A DNA stretch of 64,000 nt from positions 2,555,501 through 2,619,500 of the forward strand of contig NZ_MTPW01000001.1 of the NCBI RefSeq assembly GCF_002954765.1. The letters run 5' to 3'. How positions within the stretch are numbered: the first letter of the stretch is position 1; each line of letters opens with the position of its first letter. Shown here in pieces: positions 8,251 through 17,677 of the stretch. The DNA comes from Nonlabens arenilitoris. GTDB taxonomy: Bacteria > Bacteroidota > Bacteroidia > Flavobacteriales > Flavobacteriaceae. The notes under the pieces are model-generated. The model was not told the DNA's origin. It was given only the letters and a program-made list of their open reading frames with translations, and made no database searches. Made by a program: the position numbers and the translations under genes.

Positions 8251-9579
8251 ATGAAGAAACTAGCACTACACTGGCAAATTTTAATAGGAATGGTTCTCGG
8301 AATCGTTTTTGGGTTTATCATGACTCAAGTAGATTGGGGAAAAGAATTTGTAGGTGATTGGGTCAATCCTTTTGGGACCATATTTGTCAATTTGTTGAAA
8401 CTAATTGCGGTACCATTAATTCTAGCATCATTAATCAAAGGTATCTCTGATTTAAAAGATATTGCAAAATTCCGCAATATGGGATTGCGTACGATTGTTA
8501 TTTATATATGTACGACTATAATTGCAATTACTGTAGGTCTAGGTTTAGTAAATCTATTTGCACCTGGAGATGGTATTTCTAAAGAAACTATTGCAAAACT
8601 GAGCTCTACCTATGAAGGTAATTCTAATATAGCTGGTAAACTGGCTACCGCTGCACAAACCAAAGACGCTGGACCATTACAAGCGCTAGTGGACATGGTG
8701 CCTAGTAATGCGGTCGCTGCAATGTCTAATAATAGTTTAATGCTACAGGTGATCTTCTTTGCGATTTTCTTAGGTATATCTATGTTATTAATAGGTGAGA
8801 AAAAAGCAGAACCTATGAAGAACTTCTTTGATAGTTTAAATGATGTTGTCTTAAAAATGGTAGACTTGATCATGCTTTTTGCTCCGTTTGCTGTGTTTGC
8901 TCTATTAGCAAATGTGGTTGTAAGTGCAGATGATCCAGAGGTATTACTAGCACTTTTATTTTATGCACTAACAGTGGTAGCTGGATTGCTTATTATGATT
9001 GTTATTTACTGTTTGATATTTGCATTGTACGTAAAGAAATCTCCGTTCTGGTTTTTACAAAAAATTGCTCCTGCTCAATTATTAGCTTTTTCTACTAGTT
9101 CTAGTGCTGCTACATTACCAGTTACTATGGAAAGAGTTGAAGAGCATATGGGTGTAGAGAAAGAAGTGTCTAGTTTTGTATTACCGGTAGGTGCAACAAT
9201 AAATATGGATGGAACCAGTTTATATCAAGCTGTAGCCGCAGTGTTTGTTTGTCAAGCGTTAGATATTGATTTAACCTTCAGCGCACAGTTGACCATTATT
9301 TTAACCGCATTACTTGCTTCTATAGGAAGTGCTGCCGTACCAGGAGCAGGAATGGTAATGCTCGTGATTGTACTGGAGTCTATTGATTTTCCTAGTGAAT
9401 TATTGCCAGTAGCTCTTGCCTTAATTTTTGCGGTAGATAGACCTTTAGATATGTTGCGAACTACAGTTAACGTGACAGGAGATGCAACAGTAGCATCTAT
9501 TGTTGCAAAATCTCTTGGTAAATTTGGTAAGCCTCATGTAGAGAATTGGGATGATAACCTAGAAGATGTAACTTCTTAA
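8251..9579 (+). CDS. Dicarboxylate/amino acid:cation symporter (DAACS, GltP/DctA type)
   Basis: The 442-residue inner-membrane protein has the DAACS fold with eight transmembrane helices and two re-entrant loops. The diagnostic serine-rich loop is FSTSSSAATLPVTMERV, followed by LPVGATINMDGTSLYQAV (the NMDGT motif), SIGSAAVPGAGMVMLVIVLE and FAVDRPLDMLRTTVNVTGDATVAS. Family members import C4-dicarboxylates, glutamate or aspartate with Na+ or H+. The substrate cannot be decided from sequence alone. It lies 32 bases after aroC and may be transcribed with it. Confidence 0.92.
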   Translation: MKKLALHWQILIGMVLGIVFGFIMTQVDWGKEFVGDWVNPFGTIFVNLLKLIAVPLILASLIKGISDLKDIAKFRNMGLRTIVIYICTTIIAITVGLGLVNLFAPGDGISKETIAKLSSTYEGNSNIAGKLATAAQTKDAGPLQALVDMVPSNAVAAMSNNSLMLQVIFFAIFLGISMLLIGEKKAEPMKNFFDSLNDVVLKMVDLIMLFAPFAVFALLANVVVSADDPEVLLALLFYALTVVAGLLIMIVIYCLIFALYVKKSPFWFLQKIAPAQLLAFSTSSSAATLPVTMERVEEHMGVEKEVSSFVLPVGATINMDGTSLYQAVAAVFVCQALDIDLTFSAQLTIILTALLASIGSAAVPGAGMVMLVIVLESIDFPSELLPVALALIFAVDRPLDMLRTTVNVTGDATVASIVAKSLGKFGKPHVENWDDNLEDVTS

Positions 9580-9682: not shown

Positions 9683-11527
9683 ATGAAAGTTTTACGTATA
9701 ATTCTATTGTGCTTATTTGCATTTAATTACGCCTATGCTCAGGTAGGTATTGGTACTGAAACACCTGATCCAGCGGCAATATTGGATGTGCGTTCTGAAA
9801 TCAGCCCAGGAGTTTACGGTGGATTAAAATTACCGACACTTACATTAGCACAAAGAGCAACAATAACAGCACCCATCCCCGATGGTTTAATGATTTACCT
9901 AAGCGATGGAAACAATCGTTGTTTGCAGATTTATGATGGCACACGTAGTCAATGGATGGATTGGTATTGTATGAATGAATTGCCAGAGGCATCTCTCGTA
10001 GATTATACTGGAATTTTAGAAGTAGATGAAAATTTATCAGCTAGTTACACTTATACAGATGGTGAAAATGATACAGAATCTGGAACTTCTTATCAATGGT
10101 ATCGTGCAGATGATGCAAGTGGAACTAATGTTATTGCTATTTCAGGAGCAACCGCAGCTACTTATTTAACCACTACCGCAGACGGTAATTTTTATGTTGC
10201 TGTAGGTGTAACACCTAGAGCCAGTACTGGAGCTAGTCCAGGTATTGAGGTTTTAAGTCCTTATAGAGAAATAAAATTCAAACAGACAGAAATCGAGTTT
10301 GCCGTCGCTTCTAGTACTATCCCAGAAAATGATTTTAGCACAATCAATATTAATGTTCTCAATCCTAGTCCAACTGTTGCGACAACGGTTGAGGTCAATT
10401 TAAATGCTGCAAGCACCGCCGGTGTTTTAGGTACAGATTATGATATCGATGATAATAATAGTGTAGCGGTAACGGCTTTTCCATTCACGATGACAATTCC
10501 TGCAGGTGCGACAACTGCTAGTTTTGTTGTATACGCTTATGCAGATGATAATAATGCTGTAGATGAAATATTACAGTTAGATTTACAAAACCCTAGTGGT
10601 GGAATTAACCCAATTATAGGTGCGGTAGGTTCGCATTCAGTTACTTTTATAGATGATGATAGCGCTACTGAAATTGCCTTTGATTCTATCACCTATTCAG
10701 AAGTTGAAAACGGATTAGTCGGTTCTATTGATATCAATATCATTAATCCTTCTACTATAACAGCTACCACGGTTGAGGTAGCTCTTAACGCATCATCTAC
10801 AGCAACAAATGGAGTTGATTATGACACGGATGCCATAGGAACAGCACTAACTTTTCCTATCACAGTAACATTTCCTGCTAATACCAGTGCTTCACAACAA
10901 ATAGATTTCTTTATTACTAATGATCTCATTTCTGAAGGAGATGAAACGATTGTACTTGATTTACAAAATGTATCTGGTGGAATAAGCACCATTATAGGAG
11001 CAAATGCATCTACTACATTCAACATAGTGGATGATGAAGTGCCATTGTTTACAGAGATGAATCAAGATTTTGATTCTAGCGTTAATTGGAATTACACTCT
11101 TTCTCCAAGCGCCTATAATGTGAGCGATGATGTGTGGAATATAGTTAACTCTATGACCTCTATTTCTACGTTGAATGGAAACTTTTGGGGTATGAGGGAT
11201 TTAAATAATTCAAATGGAGGAGGGAACTTTCTTCATACATTGACTTTTGATGATGTAGATATTTCAGGAGGTACTAATGTTATATTTACATTTGATTATG
11301 AATCACAAGATTTAAATGCTGCTAGTGATCGATATGGTTATGAACTTTATTATGATGGTGTAGGGCAAGGACAGCAAAATATTTGTGCAGGTTGTGATAC
11401 AGACCTTAATGGAACTATCACTATAAATATTCCTAATACAGTTACAACATTTGGTGTTGTAATGTACGGTCGTTTCGATGGAGGAAGTGATCTCGCTGCA
11501 TTTGATAATTTTAGACTTTATCAATAA
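9683..11527 (+). CDS. Secreted surface protein with Calx-beta-like repeats
   Basis: The 614-residue protein has a signal peptide (MKVLRIILLCLFAFNYAYAQ). The flavobacterial surface module follows at about 20-110 (QVGIGTETPDPAAILDVRS, NRCLQIYDG, QWMDWYC), then a linker resembling an Ig-like fold (about 110-190). Two Calx-beta-type repeats follow at about 195-325 and 325-450; each has a V-x-V-N/A-L-N-A-S/A-S core and ends in DDD/VDDE, and the first contains YADDNNAVDEILQLDLQNPSG. The C-terminal jelly-roll-like domain (450-614) contains NFWGMRDLNNSNGGGNFLHT. Such Ca2+-binding repeats are common in adhesins. I see no type IX C-terminal sorting domain. It overlaps the next gene by one base. Confidence 0.75.
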   Translation: MKVLRIILLCLFAFNYAYAQVGIGTETPDPAAILDVRSEISPGVYGGLKLPTLTLAQRATITAPIPDGLMIYLSDGNNRCLQIYDGTRSQWMDWYCMNELPEASLVDYTGILEVDENLSASYTYTDGENDTESGTSYQWYRADDASGTNVIAISGATAATYLTTTADGNFYVAVGVTPRASTGASPGIEVLSPYREIKFKQTEIEFAVASSTIPENDFSTININVLNPSPTVATTVEVNLNAASTAGVLGTDYDIDDNNSVAVTAFPFTMTIPAGATTASFVVYAYADDNNAVDEILQLDLQNPSGGINPIIGAVGSHSVTFIDDDSATEIAFDSITYSEVENGLVGSIDINIINPSTITATTVEVALNASSTATNGVDYDTDAIGTALTFPITVTFPANTSASQQIDFFITNDLISEGDETIVLDLQNVSGGISTIIGANASTTFNIVDDEVPLFTEMNQDFDSSVNWNYTLSPSAYNVSDDVWNIVNSMTSISTLNGNFWGMRDLNNSNGGGNFLHTLTFDDVDISGGTNVIFTFDYESQDLNAASDRYGYELYYDGVGQGQQNICAGCDTDLNGTITINIPNTVTTFGVVMYGRFDGGSDLAAFDNFRLYQ

Positions 11528-12402
11528 TGAAATTTCTTCTACTCCTTCTTATACTAACAAATATATCTGCTGCACAAGTTGGTATTAATACTGATTTACC
11601 TAACGCTGCATCTGCTTTAGATATTTATGGTCAAAATACAGTAGGATTTGGTGGTCTATCAATACCTCTTGTGACAGAATCTCAAAGAGGTCAAATTATC
11701 ACCACACCTCAATCTGAAGGAATCATTGTTTTTGTGTCTTATGCCAGTGGCGTTAGATGTCTCGAGATTTATGATGGACAACAAGATGTATGGCAAAAAA
11801 TAAACTGTCTAACTTTAGATCCTATTATTTTATATACTGAGGATTTTGAAAGTTACACATCAGGTACTGGGATTAATGGATCTGGTAATTCAGGAGATTA
11901 TCCGGCTTCGGTTTCAAAATGGACTTTAAACGATATTTATGGAAGTCTAGCATCATCAGATTATGTAGAAACACAATCAGGTATGTTAGAAATTAACGAT
12001 ACTAATGGACCTATTGAGCTAGATACCCAATCTATTAACATTACTGGTTATAGTAATATATCGTTTAGTATAGATTTAAGTAGTACAGGACCGGTAGAAT
12101 ATAACCCATCACTACACAACACAGATGATACCAATTCTGTAAATGACTACATGGATGTGTCATATTCTATAGATGGTGGTGCATTTGTAACCATTACAGA
12201 TTTTAATGGTAATGGTACAACACACCATACCTTGATACCTTATTATGTAAGTGGTGGAGCAGGAAGCGCTCCTTATTTTCCAGATGATACAGTAACTCAA
12301 ACAGGATTAACCGGCTCTACTTTAGTCATAAAAGTTAGGTTTCAAAACTGGTCTGGAGATGAATTTTTCTATATTGACAATATTATAGTTACTGGTAATT
12401 AA
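11527..12402 (+). CDS. Secreted surface protein sharing the N-terminal module of its neighbour
   Basis: The 291-residue protein begins with a signal peptide (MKFLLLLLILTNISAAQ). The same QVGIN..P.AASALDIYG module follows, with VRCLEIYDGQQDVWQKINC echoing the upstream protein. A beta-rich domain from about 100 onward (DFESYTSGTGINGSGNSG, ...EFFYIDNIIVTGN) resembles carbohydrate-binding or adhesin jelly-rolls. Its ATG overlaps the stop of the previous gene (TAATG), so both are expressed together, and probably both are displayed outside the outer membrane. The ligand is unknown. Confidence 0.7.
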   Translation: MKFLLLLLILTNISAAQVGINTDLPNAASALDIYGQNTVGFGGLSIPLVTESQRGQIITTPQSEGIIVFVSYASGVRCLEIYDGQQDVWQKINCLTLDPIILYTEDFESYTSGTGINGSGNSGDYPASVSKWTLNDIYGSLASSDYVETQSGMLEINDTNGPIELDTQSINITGYSNISFSIDLSSTGPVEYNPSLHNTDDTNSVNDYMDVSYSIDGGAFVTITDFNGNGTTHHTLIPYYVSGGAGSAPYFPDDTVTQTGLTGSTLVIKVRFQNWSGDEFFYIDNIIVTGN

Positions 12403-12520: not shown

Positions 12521-13552
12521 ATGAATATTTGTTTCATCATGTATCCGTGGGACGAGATACAACCAGAACACGATTCTACACTAGCAATAATTCATGAATG
12601 TGTAAAGCGTGGCCATAAAGTAGCCGTTGCCACACCTGCAAACCTTACAATAAGAGATAGTATAGCATATGCCTTTTCTAGTGTAATTAAAAAGATGGAA
12701 AAGGTGCCAGCACAGTTCAAATCTTTTTACAAGCAAGTAGAGCTTAAAGAAAAGATGTTGCCACTAGCAGGATTTGACATTATTATGATGAGAGCAAATC
12801 CACCATTAGACCCTATAGCTTTAAATTTTTTAGATTCTGTAAAAGATGATGTATTTATAGTTAATGATATTGAAGGATTGCGAGAAGCAAATAATAAACT
12901 ATATACCGCTTGTTTTGAAGATCCTAATAACGAGATAATTCCCGCAACGCATGTTTCAAAAAACAAAGAATATCTAAAAAGTGTCATTAAAGATAATCCA
13001 AAGGATCGCATGATCATGAAACCATTAAATGGTTTTGGAGGTAGTGGTGTTATTATGATTGAGAAAAACGCGATGCATAATGTTAACTCATTGCTAGATT
13101 TTTATATCGATAATAAAGACGGTACTACTAATTATGTCATACTACAAGATTATATAGAAGGAGCAGATCAAGGCGATACTCGTATCTTATTGCTTAATGG
13201 TAAGCCCATAGGAGCTGTGAAACGAGTTCCTGGAGATGAAGATCATCGTTCTAACATTAGTGCTGGTGGTACCTTTCAACGTCACCAATTAACTAAAGCA
13301 GAAAAAAACCTATGTCATAAGATAGGTCCTAAACTTGTTAAAGATGGACTATATTTTGTAGGCATCGATGTTATTAATGGAATGTTAGTAGAGGTAAACG
13401 TAATGTCGCCAGGCGGTATTACTTACATAAACAAGGTATCTAAAGTAAAATTACAATGTAAAGTTGTCGACTTTTTTGAAGAAGTTGTAGGTGAAAAAAT
13501 ACTAGCTTCAGAGAGAAGAGATAAATTAAAAAGCTCCATACGCAATGCTTAA
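12521..13552 (+). CDS. ATP-grasp ligase, glutathione synthase/RimK-like
   Basis: The 343-residue protein opens MNICFIMYPWDEIQPEHDST, the pre-ATP-grasp domain seen in GshB-like enzymes. The ATP-grasp domain has the phosphate-binding loop MKPLNGFGGSGVIMIEKNA (about 167-186) and LQDYIEGADQGDTRILLLNGKPIGAVKR. The metal ligands lie in MLVEVNVMSPGG, with E291 and N293. These enzymes activate a carboxylate as an acyl phosphate and couple it to an amine. It is the first gene of a four-gene overlapping operon, and its stop overlaps the next ATG by eight bases. A true glutathione synthetase would need a gamma-glutamylcysteine ligase, and none is next to it. The substrate is therefore open: a peptide, amino-acid or tail ligase is plausible. 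Confidence 0.8.
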   Translation: MNICFIMYPWDEIQPEHDSTLAIIHECVKRGHKVAVATPANLTIRDSIAYAFSSVIKKMEKVPAQFKSFYKQVELKEKMLPLAGFDIIMMRANPPLDPIALNFLDSVKDDVFIVNDIEGLREANNKLYTACFEDPNNEIIPATHVSKNKEYLKSVIKDNPKDRMIMKPLNGFGGSGVIMIEKNAMHNVNSLLDFYIDNKDGTTNYVILQDYIEGADQGDTRILLLNGKPIGAVKRVPGDEDHRSNISAGGTFQRHQLTKAEKNLCHKIGPKLVKDGLYFVGIDVINGMLVEVNVMSPGGITYINKVSKVKLQCKVVDFFEEVVGEKILASERRDKLKSSIRNA

Positions 13553-14381
13553 ATTAAGTATCACTGAAATGCTGATGAAAATCGAGCGTGAAGAGCGATT
13601 TCATGCTGTGGCTACCGATTATTCTTTTTCAATTAAAATAGATAAATATGTACCCTTTGTTTGTGCAGCGGTACACGATGGCCATCACTTTCAGAAACAA
13701 TTGTGGGACAACTGTATGCATACACAGTATGACCGCTGGTATGAGGAAGATCCTTGTACTGGTGAGATGATTTCGGGATTACCTATTACTCTTATAGCAC
13801 ATGATTCTAGGTTTGAATACGATTTAAATAGAGATCCACTTGAAGCTATCTATGAAACTGCTTGGGGAAAAGAGCTATGGAAAAAACCGCTTTCGCGAAA
13901 GCAGAAAGATCAAGCCATTTTAAAGCATAATAATTTTTATAGAGTGGTACTGTCTTTGATAGTAAAGCTAGAAGAAATGTTTGGGTCGACGGTATTCTAT
14001 GATATACATTCTTATAATTGGAAAAGATGGGATCGTAAAGTACCCGTATTTAATCTAGGAACTAAAAATATAGATCAAGACCGATTTGTACATGACATAC
14101 AACAGTGGAAGGAAATACTAGATAAAATTGAATTGCCTATAGAACAAGAAATCAACTGCGGGATTAACGATGTATTTCAAGGTAATGGCTACTTTTTAAA
14201 ATATGTCACATCTAACTCCTTAAATACTTTAGTACTGGCAACAGAGATTTCTAAAGTATATTGTGATGAAGAAACTGGAGTCATTTATCCAGATATTGTT
14301 CACGCGATAAAAGATCAATTTAAGTATTATATACAAGCGCATGCACACAGATTTTATGAAAGACACGAACGTATTGTTTAA
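13545..14381 (+). CDS. N-formylglutamate amidohydrolase-like hydrolase (FGase family)
   Basis: The 278-residue protein has the FGase-type zinc hydrolase features: VCAAVHDGHHFQKQLWD with H44-x3-H48, DPCTGEMISGLPITLIAHDSRFEYDLNRDP, and FYDIHSYN. The canonical family cleaves N-formylglutamate in histidine degradation, but no hut genes are present here. The gene is embedded between an ATP-grasp ligase and a DUF1704 peptidase, overlapping both. The context suggests it removes a group that the ligase adds or acts on the same peptide-like substrate; that is inference. A copy of the palindrome is read as LSRK in this gene. Confidence 0.78.
   Translation: MLKLSITEMLMKIEREERFHAVATDYSFSIKIDKYVPFVCAAVHDGHHFQKQLWDNCMHTQYDRWYEEDPCTGEMISGLPITLIAHDSRFEYDLNRDPLEAIYETAWGKELWKKPLSRKQKDQAILKHNNFYRVVLSLIVKLEEMFGSTVFYDIHSYNWKRWDRKVPVFNLGTKNIDQDRFVHDIQQWKEILDKIELPIEQEINCGINDVFQGNGYFLKYVTSNSLNTLVLATEISKVYCDEETGVIYPDIVHAIKDQFKYYIQAHAHRFYERHERIV
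13888..13903. repeat. 16-bp palindrome (last base differs) inside the FGase-like gene
   Basis: Fifteen of 16 bases match (ends GCA instead of GCG). It is read CTT TCG CGA AAG, giving LSRK, a different frame from the copies in aroC and purL. Confidence 0.85.
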
Positions 14382-15537
14382 GGGAGAAAAACTTAATCAC
14401 GCAGCTATTTATGATATAGATGCAAACGTTCATAGACTAGTAAGTAAAATTGAGTTGCTGGCCTACATCAATCCATTAAATATCGCACAAGAACGCAAAA
14501 ACTTCTTTAAAGAAAAATTCAATTACCAACCTGATTTTAAGTATCGTAAGGTAAAATTTAAACCTTATAAACTTCATAGACTATTTTTCTCTCAACGATT
14601 AGAACGTGTAGAAGATGAGTTAATTCAAAGTCTTTATAAAGATATTATATACACATATAGTGGTCTTGTACAATGTATTGAGACGATTAAAGAGCCAGGA
14701 AACAAATTTTACTTTAATAGTCTAAGATTCTTTGGAACGCCTACAGAAAGGATGGTAGATAATGCAAAGTTTATCTTGCATCATCAGGTACCTGTTTCTG
14801 AAAAGGCTTTATTTGAAAAAACGTTATCTACAGAAGACGCCATAGAATATTTTAAAAACTTCAGAAATCAATATGGTTTTGATTTTTCTATAAAAACCAG
14901 TTCTGCCATGAGTGCTGCAGCGATGGTTTCTAATAATGAACAATGTTTATATCTCAAAAAGAATCAAAAGTTCTCGAGACATGAGCTAGAATTACTAGGC
15001 CATCATGAAATAGGTGTCCATCTAGTCACTACTTTCAATGCGTTAGAACAACCTTTAAAGGTTTTTAGTAACGGCTTTCCTAATAATGTAGAGACTCAAG
15101 AAGGGCTTGCGGTTATGTCTGAATATTTAAGCGGTAATCTGACCATGACTCGCTTACATGAACTAGCTTATAGAGTTATAGCGGTAGACTCTCTTACAAA
15201 AGGCTACTCCTTTGCAGATACTTTTGATCTTATACATAATCAGTATAAGTTAAAAAAAGAAAAAGCTTTTAATATCACCTTGCGTGTGCACCGTGGTGGA
15301 GGTTTTACTAAAGACGCCTTGTACTTATCTGGTCTTAAGAAAATATATGATCTGTACAAAGCTGGAAACTCACTAGATCATTTGATGATGGGGAAATGCT
15401 CACTAGAGTATGCTCCAGTAGTTAATGAATTGTTGAATCAAGGACTAGCCATACCGTCAAAATATAAATCACTATCCCTGCAATTAGAGCCTGTCATTGA
15501 TCCAACCATTGATTTTATTTTAAAAAATCTTAAATAA
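14341..15537 (+). CDS. DUF1704 metallopeptidase (QEGLA-motif protein)
   Basis: The 398-residue protein belongs to the family annotated as flavohemoglobin expression-modulating QEGLA motif protein (DUF1704). It has H222-E-I-G-V-H227 (HExxxH, in GHHEIGVHLVTTFN) and E254 in ETQEGLAVMSEYLSG, giving a set of two histidines and a glutamate to bind zinc. THYR-like and RVHRGGGFTKDALYLSG stretches complete the family pattern. Eukaryotic DUF1704 proteins (MATCAP/KIAA0895L) are carboxypeptidases that remove the C-terminal tyrosine of alpha-tubulin. It starts inside the FGase gene (41-base overlap; ATG 14356 is an alternative) and its stop overlaps the next ATG by one base. Peptidase activity is likely; the substrate is unknown. 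Confidence 0.82.
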   Translation: MHTDFMKDTNVLFKGEKLNHAAIYDIDANVHRLVSKIELLAYINPLNIAQERKNFFKEKFNYQPDFKYRKVKFKPYKLHRLFFSQRLERVEDELIQSLYKDIIYTYSGLVQCIETIKEPGNKFYFNSLRFFGTPTERMVDNAKFILHHQVPVSEKALFEKTLSTEDAIEYFKNFRNQYGFDFSIKTSSAMSAAAMVSNNEQCLYLKKNQKFSRHELELLGHHEIGVHLVTTFNALEQPLKVFSNGFPNNVETQEGLAVMSEYLSGNLTMTRLHELAYRVIAVDSLTKGYSFADTFDLIHNQYKLKKEKAFNITLRVHRGGGFTKDALYLSGLKKIYDLYKAGNSLDHLMMGKCSLEYAPVVNELLNQGLAIPSKYKSLSLQLEPVIDPTIDFILKNLK

Positions 15538-16889
15538 TGAGATATCTCATACTGCTTTTTACATGTTTTTGCTTTTTAGTAGCTCAATCTCAAAAGAAAG
15601 TTCCTGTAAACTTAACCTTTGAGTATACAGATACACTTACTGTTAACGAATTTGTCTGGGTAGGGCAACCAGGATTAGATTATGGTACCTCTCTAGAAGC
15701 TATGGAAAATGGCTATTTACCTTATAACGGCTTTCAGTATTTAAACTGGTTGAATCATAAAGTACAGTTACATTTAGAAGAGGAAGATACTTTTACTATT
15801 GTATTAGGTCAGGATTTTGATGAGTATAGTTTCTATTATGCTGGTGAGGTAGGAGCTATTAAAAACAATTATATATTAGATAGAGTTCGATTATTACAAG
15901 AATTAGAAACAGATGCTTCTTATCAAAAGTCAGATAGAGAACAGGCAAAGTTGTTATTAGAACAAAAGAAGGACAGTATGCTATCCATAGCTGGATCCTT
16001 AGGGCTTACAGATTCTTTTATAAAGGATGAAAAAAAATATTGGCAGTATTATATCAATTACCACTACGTTTTTCATGATGTACTACGTAATGAAGACTTA
16101 GATTTTACATCACTAGACATAACTGATTTTCCTGAAATGGATTATGACAATCAAGAAGATCATTTTAATTATAGAGATTATTTAAAATTAAGTCTGGCTT
16201 ACCATTATCTGAAAATTAATACGCTGCAGGATTATGATAGTATGAAAGATGCAGTAAAAGATATTGATTCAAGAATTCTTAAATTTAGTTTAATACCTAT
16301 TTGGGCTGATCAGATTTATAAAAGAAATTCTCGTAGCGAGGATTACATGCGATTAGTCAATAGATTTTCTAATTCACCTTCTCATTACCGATCTGTAAAG
16401 GATATCTATAATAAACGGAATAGGTTAACGCAGGGAGATTTCTTTCCTTTTCCTGAAACGACTGATTTTTATGATAAACCTATTGAGCTAGAAAAGGCTA
16501 AAGGTAAGCCAGCATATATACTAATATATGCGCCAGAAGATGAGTATATTGATAACAACTTTCTAAAGTGGAATCAATTTTATTTACAACATCGAGATGA
16601 AGATGCGCGTTTTATTACTATCGGTCTAGGGACTGATCGAGTTAAGGCAGTTTTTAAAGATGTTTTTTTAAATTCTCAAATTGTAGGATCCCATTTAAGT
16701 ACCAGTCCCAGAGAAGCTAGAAATCTTTTAGAAAATCTAAGTATAGGTTATGTGCCTACCATTATCAAGATAGATGAAAGCGGTAACATCATTGATTTTA
16801 ATGTAAATGCTAACTTAAAAAAAGTAAATCCTTTTCAAAGTCGTCCCATTATTTTAAGATGGAGATCTGAACTAGGGAAAAGCTTTTAG
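15537..16889 (+). CDS. Exported protein with C-terminal thioredoxin-like fold, no CXXC
   Basis: The 450-residue protein has a signal peptide ([19 protein letters not shown]). A helical, acidic middle part follows, and about 140 C-terminal residues look like a thioredoxin fold of the TlpA/DUF4369 sort ([59 protein letters not shown], with the cis-proline in VPT). The CXXC redox motif is absent: the position holds PEDEY. It therefore probably acts as a binding or scaffold protein. It is the last gene of the operon starting at 12521 (TAATG overlap) and converges by four bases with the DUF3050 gene. Confidence 0.65.
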
Positions 16890-17677
16890 TGGTTATATGA
16901 TACTTGCATTTTATCTTCAGTAATCTGATTATTGATAGTATCCCATAAGGCAATCCTTTTTTCGAGCGCTAATTTTGCAACGGTTAAGACTTCATCCCAC
17001 TTTACTTGATCTGTACCACATAATTCCTCTATCATCTGTAATGATAAAGGACCATGCTCATCTCCATCTAATTCTATATGTCGTTCTAGGTAATAGCGTA
17101 GTTTATTAAATTTATTATTCTTAGCATCGGCAGTTTTAAGAATCTCTATAAATATATCAGGTATTACATCTTCTCTGCCAAAGGTGAAAGCAGACGCTAT
17201 TAAATGTGCTTTATCGGTCTCAATGATGTCAAAGGTGAATTTCACAAAATCAATAACACCATCATTAATTTCAAGTTTTCTTAATGCCGATCCTACAGTC
17301 TCTCCAGATTGAATTGAATTTATAAAATCTTGAATTTGATGAGTATCTGCACCGACTTGATACATCGCATCTAGATACATTTCAAAATGACTTTTAGGCT
17401 CGCCTATTTCATTAATATCACTTTCTTCACCATGTACTATCTCATTGATAAAACGGGCTAGAGTAGGGTTTTTTACAGGTATCCATGGAGTGGAAACATT
17501 AGTTAATTGAATTTGTAAAGATTTTAAAAGTGACATAAAATCCCATACTGCATACACATGGTTCTCCATAAACATTTTTACATCATCCATACTAGATAAA
17601 TTATTGTATAGTTGATGTTGTTGCAATTGATTTCTTAAATCAGCAATTTGGTCTTCTATGTGATGTACTTGTTTCAT
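16886..17677 (-). CDS. DUF3050 protein, heme-oxygenase-like fold
   Basis: The 263-residue protein matches the DUF3050 pattern: [58 protein letters not shown] and [22 protein letters not shown]. The conserved E/H/D/E/H residues in helices (E in EIVHGEE, H in SHFE, E and H in [14 protein letters not shown]) are the sort used by heme-oxygenase-like di-iron enzymes. I infer a metal-dependent oxygenase. The substrate is not known. Its stop overlaps that of the convergent thioredoxin-like gene. It is not obviously in an operon. Confidence 0.75.

Follow-up and report, generated by a model that had tools for sequence, protein, structure and literature searches.

What product do the overlapping enzyme genes of the marine bacterium Nonlabens arenilitoris serve, and what does the kinship of one of them with a human tubulin-trimming enzyme tell about it? 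The genome comprises 3.32 Mb in three contigs. The window, which is the whole stretch of 64 000 nucleotides that was analysed, carries four consecutive forward-strand open reading frames in the ORF list. Gene 1 (12521–13552, 343 aa; Pfam GSH-S_N and GSH-S_ATP) encodes an ATP-grasp, glutathione-synthetase-like protein, termed GS1, which is a predicted peptide ligase on the basis of its Pfam, NCBIfam and 1gsa matches. Gene 2 (13545–14381, 278 aa; Pfam FGase) encodes a predicted FGase-fold metallohydrolase, and gene 3 (14341–15537, 398 aa from the first ATG; Pfam MATCAP) a predicted metallocarboxypeptidase of the MATCAP/DUF1704 or QEGLA family. Gene 4 (15537–16889, 450 aa) encodes an exported protein and is treated at the end. 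Sequence, fold and genome comparisons establish that the ligase, FGase and MATCAP proteins belong together, with their catalytic residues kept and the two hydrolases often joined in one polypeptide. Our tentative answer to the first question, in which doubt slightly outweighs belief, is that they work inside the cell as a conserved set of three enzymes, which together form and break an amide bond at the C terminus of a small peptide or of an amino-acid conjugate.

The initial annotation gave overlaps of 8, 41 and 1 bases between the four genes. The first and last stand; the value of 41 holds for the first ATG of gene 3 only. The most likely start of this gene is the ATG at 14356, in agreement with the 393 aa of the database protein, and the overlap is then 26 bases. 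Among named organisms, Nonlabens has the nearest relatives of the MATCAP protein, and Nonlabens ulvanivorans (L091) has the identical gene order, gene 4 included. No literature on the bacterial cassette was found among the matches listed.

The proposal of a functional cassette had been made to depend on conserved neighbours, and it survives this comparison. A scan of named genomes gave at least 575 confirmed places; the best 80 (loci L033–L112, a sample biased to the query type) were compared, and all three genes are kept together at 70 of them. FGase and MATCAP occur together at 76 of these 80 loci and are fused at 55. The ligase accompanies a fused FGase–MATCAP protein at 49 loci, and at 21 all three are present with no unbroken fusion, including L045 and L061, where the reading frame is broken rather than cleanly unfused. 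Six loci have the fused protein and no cassette-type ligase in the stretch examined (at one of them, L074, the place of the ligase is masked), and four have MATCAP alone, so that the cassette can come apart. In 28 of the 70 full loci, the ends of the ligase alignment and the FGase alignment run 1–13 nt into each other. The 80 loci, many of them from metagenome bins, belong to Bacteroidota (49), Pseudomonadota (27), Verrucomicrobiota, Thermodesulfobacteriota and Bdellovibrionota (one each), and one is unassigned. The adjacency is more than chance, as it is seen again in several phyla and FGase–MATCAP fusions are common. The cassette of L053, from a Verrucomicrobiales metagenome bin, is Bacteroidota-like and falls within Bacteroidota in the tree, reflecting either gene transfer or a mis-binned contig.

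The MATCAP domain (PF08014) is present in 10 of 148 Bacteroidota genomes, this one among them. Each of the nine others has a ligase gene no more than four genes from MATCAP, and eight have an FGase gene at such a distance; in L014, FGase and MATCAP are one fused protein. An FGase relative occurs in 10 of the 148 genomes, namely nine of the 10 that bear MATCAP and one of the 138 others; G053 has the ligase and MATCAP and lacks FGase. Ligases scoring 100 bits or more occur in 11 genomes (10 of 10 and one of 138), with a cut-off picked after the list was seen and 16 more genomes with weaker matches left uncounted. The Fisher probabilities of co-occurrence with MATCAP are 1.4e-12 for FGase and 1.1e-14 for the ligase (148 genomes, relatedness ignored). 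In the class to which Photobacterium lutimaris belongs, 21 of 143 genomes also have MATCAP, and 127 plasmid records have a match. Eleven plasmid loci were examined: in six, from rhizobia and related bacteria, FGase, a long MATCAP and a ligase are adjacent; two from Photobacterium combine the ligase with fused FGase–MATCAP, one from Vibrio lacks a ligase beside its fused protein, and the remaining two show MATCAP only. L021 and L026 represent one species. The arrangement of ligase and fused protein is found in Photobacterium at L023, L030 and named Photobacterium loci. Seven further loci of the long or fused type have both FGase and ligase in four cases and at least one of them in all seven.

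The MATCAP protein scores 324.8 bits against PF08014 (cut-off 27). The residues H222, E223, H227 and E254, singled out by the initial annotation, are invariant in 81 aligned MATCAPs, and the protein has the HExxxH motif and the third ligand E of the family. The fold is also that of the family, the closest being human MATCAP, followed by the DUF885 and M32 carboxypeptidases. The protein is a predicted metallocarboxypeptidase, and fold and profile both confirm its presumed kinship with the eukaryotic MATCAPs. It is 21% identical to human MATCAP/TMCP1 (KIAA0895L; 7z5g, 7z6s) over the aligned part; when the profiles are aligned, the human protein is seven residues longer ahead of the G-x-F-[ST]-K-D region, whereas the bacterial gene is distinguished by lying beside, or being fused to, FGase near a ligase. 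Against the QEGLA model TIGR02421, the window protein scores 317.2, under the NCBIfam cut-off of 338.65, which is passed by the fused relatives L070 (458) and L014 (381).

Bacterial MATCAPs are of three types, which form separate groups in a 74-row tree made by a quick method and carrying a long-branch warning; near-copies, database proteins and, for speed, ten rows were dropped from it. These are the cassette type (short or fused), the long type (about 610–660 aa, accompanied by a distinct kind of ligase, GS2) and the solo type (about 430–465 aa, one of 702). The unfused Flavobacteriaceae clade of the window (nine rows, SH-aLRT 100) sits among fused rows, the enclosing forks having a support of 83–89. 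Because of this nesting, the overlapping FGase and MATCAP genes of the window may have arisen by the split of a fused gene; several separate fusions are the alternative. The long MATCAPs have an extra N-terminal region of some 230–260 residues, for which the single protein scanned (L017:8955-10784) gave no Pfam match. Thirteen solo-type gammaproteobacterial loci were taken, with a MATCAP reading frame in 12 and none in L177. None of the 12 has FGase or a cassette-strength ligase within four reading frames on either side, L169 showing a weak ATP-grasp match of 64 bits, and the solo type was accordingly rejected as a clue to function.

The FGase protein passes the Pfam cut-off of PF05013, and its fold resembles 2q7s and the M14 carboxypeptidases; its profile gave nothing at E 1 against the sequences of solved structures. 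Of the two metal ligands initially assigned to it, H44 is kept in 64 of 65 rows, with one gap. H48 is not: the commonest residues at this position are Q (25 of 65) and R (17 of 65), and H155, present in 63 of the 65 rows, is a better candidate for the second ligand. With 17 bits against the HutG model TIGR02017, far under its cut-off of 278.75, the protein is not classed as the histidine-degradation enzyme. It differs from N-formylglutamate amidohydrolase (2q7s, 2odf) in this failure and in its common fusion to MATCAP. Among the loci without a ligase, FGase residues are changed strongly in L075 and L083, less in L027 and little in L066 and L111. FGase decay is not cleanly tied to ligase loss, since L064, also without a ligase, has an intact FGase and L068, which keeps the ligase, a changed one. 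In L075, L083, L027 and L068, the FGase half lacks several conserved residues and the MATCAP half is kept.

The ligase matches PF02955 (186 bits) and PF02951 (90 bits), the NCBIfam subfamily PRK12458 (456 bits, over the cut-off of 408) and the Escherichia coli GshB structure 1gsa (E 6e-38), and no tubulin tyrosine ligase model is among its Pfam matches at E 0.1, nor did such a relation show in the NCBIfam and structure matches. It belongs to the glutathione-synthetase family, the parallel with tubulin tyrosine ligases drawn earlier is not supported, and the tubulin analogy is supported for one enzyme only, MATCAP. Residues D283/E291/N293 and R91/R221/R235/R243 are conserved. The metal ligands E291 and N293, named in the initial annotation, align with E281/N283 of E. 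coli GshB and are invariant in 77 cassette ligases. In an alignment of five GshB (E. coli and four others, L115 not among them), 77 GS1 and 10 GS2 rows, the metal ligands and main arginines (R86/R210/R225/R233 in E. coli numbering) are common to all three groups. Positions uniform in the five GshB rows are nevertheless altered in the 77 GS1 ligases: D9 to Y in 97%, K87 to A in 66%, D88 to N in 86%, T288 to G in 100% and C289 to G in 87%.

This family membership raises the question of whether the ligase makes a glutathione analogue that the two hydrolases recycle. The ligase passes the glutathione synthase model PRK05246 (289.9 bits, cut-off 272) but not TIGR01380 (239 bits, cut-off 299). Genes fitting a thiol system occur nearby: of 101 loci, 17 have a rhodanese cluster, which frequently separates ligase and FGase, and 15 have a cluster of DCC1-like thiol-disulfide proteins, yet wherever the origin is named these loci are from Flavobacteriaceae or genomes of the same family. 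Two rhodaneses scanned are mercaptopyruvate sulfurtransferase-like (216 and 205 against a cut-off of 250). The GshA families PF04107 and PF04262 are both absent from this genome, and among the ten cassette-bearing Bacteroidota genomes GCS2 occurs in one and Glu_cys_ligase in none. All five Gammaproteobacteria tested (G148–G151, G158) hold a stronger GshB elsewhere (262–274 bits) besides the cassette ligase (184–203 bits), which is thus a separate paralogue where both occur. G152–G156 (Bacteriovoracaceae, Verrucomicrobiales and Bacteroidota) have the cassette ligase and no match of GshB strength, and a Desulfocapsa genome gave weak ligase/GshB matches only. Together with the replaced GshB residues, the near-absence of these two GshA families and the separate GshB make a thiol or glutathione-like system rather unlikely, and it is unlikely, judging from the sequences, that the cassette ligase is an ordinary glutathione synthetase.

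That the cassette serves to attach a terminal group and take it off again is a plausible prediction. In the amide-bond cycle that we favour, the ATP-grasp ligase would activate a terminal carboxylate as an acyl phosphate and couple it, in the manner of GshB, with the amino group of a second amino acid, and the FGase-fold and MATCAP domains would hydrolyse terminal residues of the product. The cell could thereby raise or drain a peptide pool. Glutathionylspermidine synthetase/amidase pairs a ligase with an amidase on one product and would work like the cassette; its domains are unrelated, and the likeness is an analogy only. The conserved partner ligase and the often-fused second hydrolase make the role of the bacterial relatives of tubulin carboxypeptidases testable. 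The cassette is widely conserved, and the labels ‘glutathione synthase/synthetase’ and ‘flavohemoglobin expression-modulating protein’ in annotated records designate parts of one unit, which would correct the annotation; one of these parts is a bacterial cousin of the human tubulin-trimming enzyme.

Published data suggest when such a pool might matter. In the portion of PMC10308900 available, the Photobacterium damselae genes A0J47_RS17020 (‘GshB’) and A0J47_RS17025 (QEGLA), consecutive by tag and equated with the cassette by label and tag only, are 38.4 and 27.5 times up in 1% versus 3% NaCl. The response is broad, as 888 genes of this organism are up at low salt in the same excerpt, and in this one organism the effect of salt on the cassette may be indirect. 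The response suggests a role when osmolarity falls, perhaps to store amino acids such as glutamate or to clear them. Vibrio vulnificus VV2_1203 (COG3930) and VV2_1204 (glutathione synthetase), equated with the cassette by label only, are both listed among 80 clade-specific genes in the part of PMC3091676 available.

The substrate might also be a protein, the ligase adding and MATCAP removing C-terminal residues in a bacterial counterpart of tubulin tyrosination/glutamylation. The MATCAP fold and catalytic residues agree with this, and the cassette-type profile (13 rows) is the nearest of the three bacterial types to human MATCAP, with 63.5 bits against 46.1 for the long type (14 rows) and 23.1 for the solo type (13 rows); a mixed profile of 73 rows, mostly of the cassette type, reaches 72.5 bits. 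The human enzymes act in tail processing and deglutamylation according to the available part of PMC10499314, and the S6 glutamate ligase RimK is 52-fold up in the low-salt data seen from PMC10308900. The cassette ligase, however, has a GSH-S N-terminal domain, and its family is one known for small peptides; such a tail cycle appears quite improbable. The FGase domain, too, would be better suited to small N-acyl amino acids than to protein tails. Also distinctly unlikely is the wider idea of a forerunner of the tubulin tail code, performing C-terminal ligation and deligation on peptides or a protein, with a carboxypeptidase ancestral to the eukaryotic MATCAPs, and tying up or releasing glutamate-type amino acids when osmolarity falls.

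Gene order and fusion show joint use only, and they would also suit a pathway that runs in one direction, towards synthesis or breakdown, with the hydrolases preparing or completing the product without reversing the ligase. At L047, L051, L054 (750–9414) and L057, the cassette is preceded on its own strand by agmatinase-like, deoxyhypusine-synthase-family and related genes; the deoxyhypusine-synthase-family gene of L054 scores 594 bits against the 1,9-bis(guanidino)-5-aza-nonane synthase model. This family is not enriched with MATCAP, since 119 of the 148 Bacteroidota genomes have it, as do eight of the 10 that bear MATCAP, and a polyamine link was rejected on this ground and for the small number of loci. 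The commonest non-cassette neighbour cluster, that of a GltP-like dicarboxylate/amino-acid symporter, reaches just 21 of 101 loci, which also argues against a one-way pathway, to which we give little credence. The symporter gene lies 14 nt (L013) and 20 nt (L012) upstream of the ligase; in the window (8251–9579, forward strand; NCBIfam GltP 262 bits, below the cut-off of 638), two exported genes on the same strand (9683–12402) intervene.

Two other candidate roles were discarded. The three cassette proteins have no PADLOC match at E 0.01, against a part in anti-phage defence, and the best graspetide-type model is MvdC with 16.5 against 425 bits; as the genes overlap, there is no room for a precursor gene within the cassette. 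Promoter-like sites number 26, compared with 22.1 (s.d. 4.6) in shuffled sequences, and are not clearly more frequent.

Gene 4 lies outside the wider unit and is a genus-level accessory. The initial annotation counted it as a cassette member with a thioredoxin fold, and neither view was borne out. It is found at only L091 among 100 other loci and has no match in NCBIfam, nor in Pfam with the limit relaxed to E 10, its C-terminal part being thioredoxin-like by eye, without CxxC. Homologues occur in 17 of 59 relatives, and by coordinates the gene adjoins the short MATCAP in 10 of the 17 short-MATCAP genomes of the genus (G000, G301, G303, G304, G308, G312, G315, G316, G319 and G320). Its best PADLOC match, to SduA, is marginal (E 0.0096). 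Downstream, the next gene (16886–17677, reverse strand) encodes a protein that scores 338 bits as DUF3050; it also resembles haem oxygenases weakly, under the cut-off.
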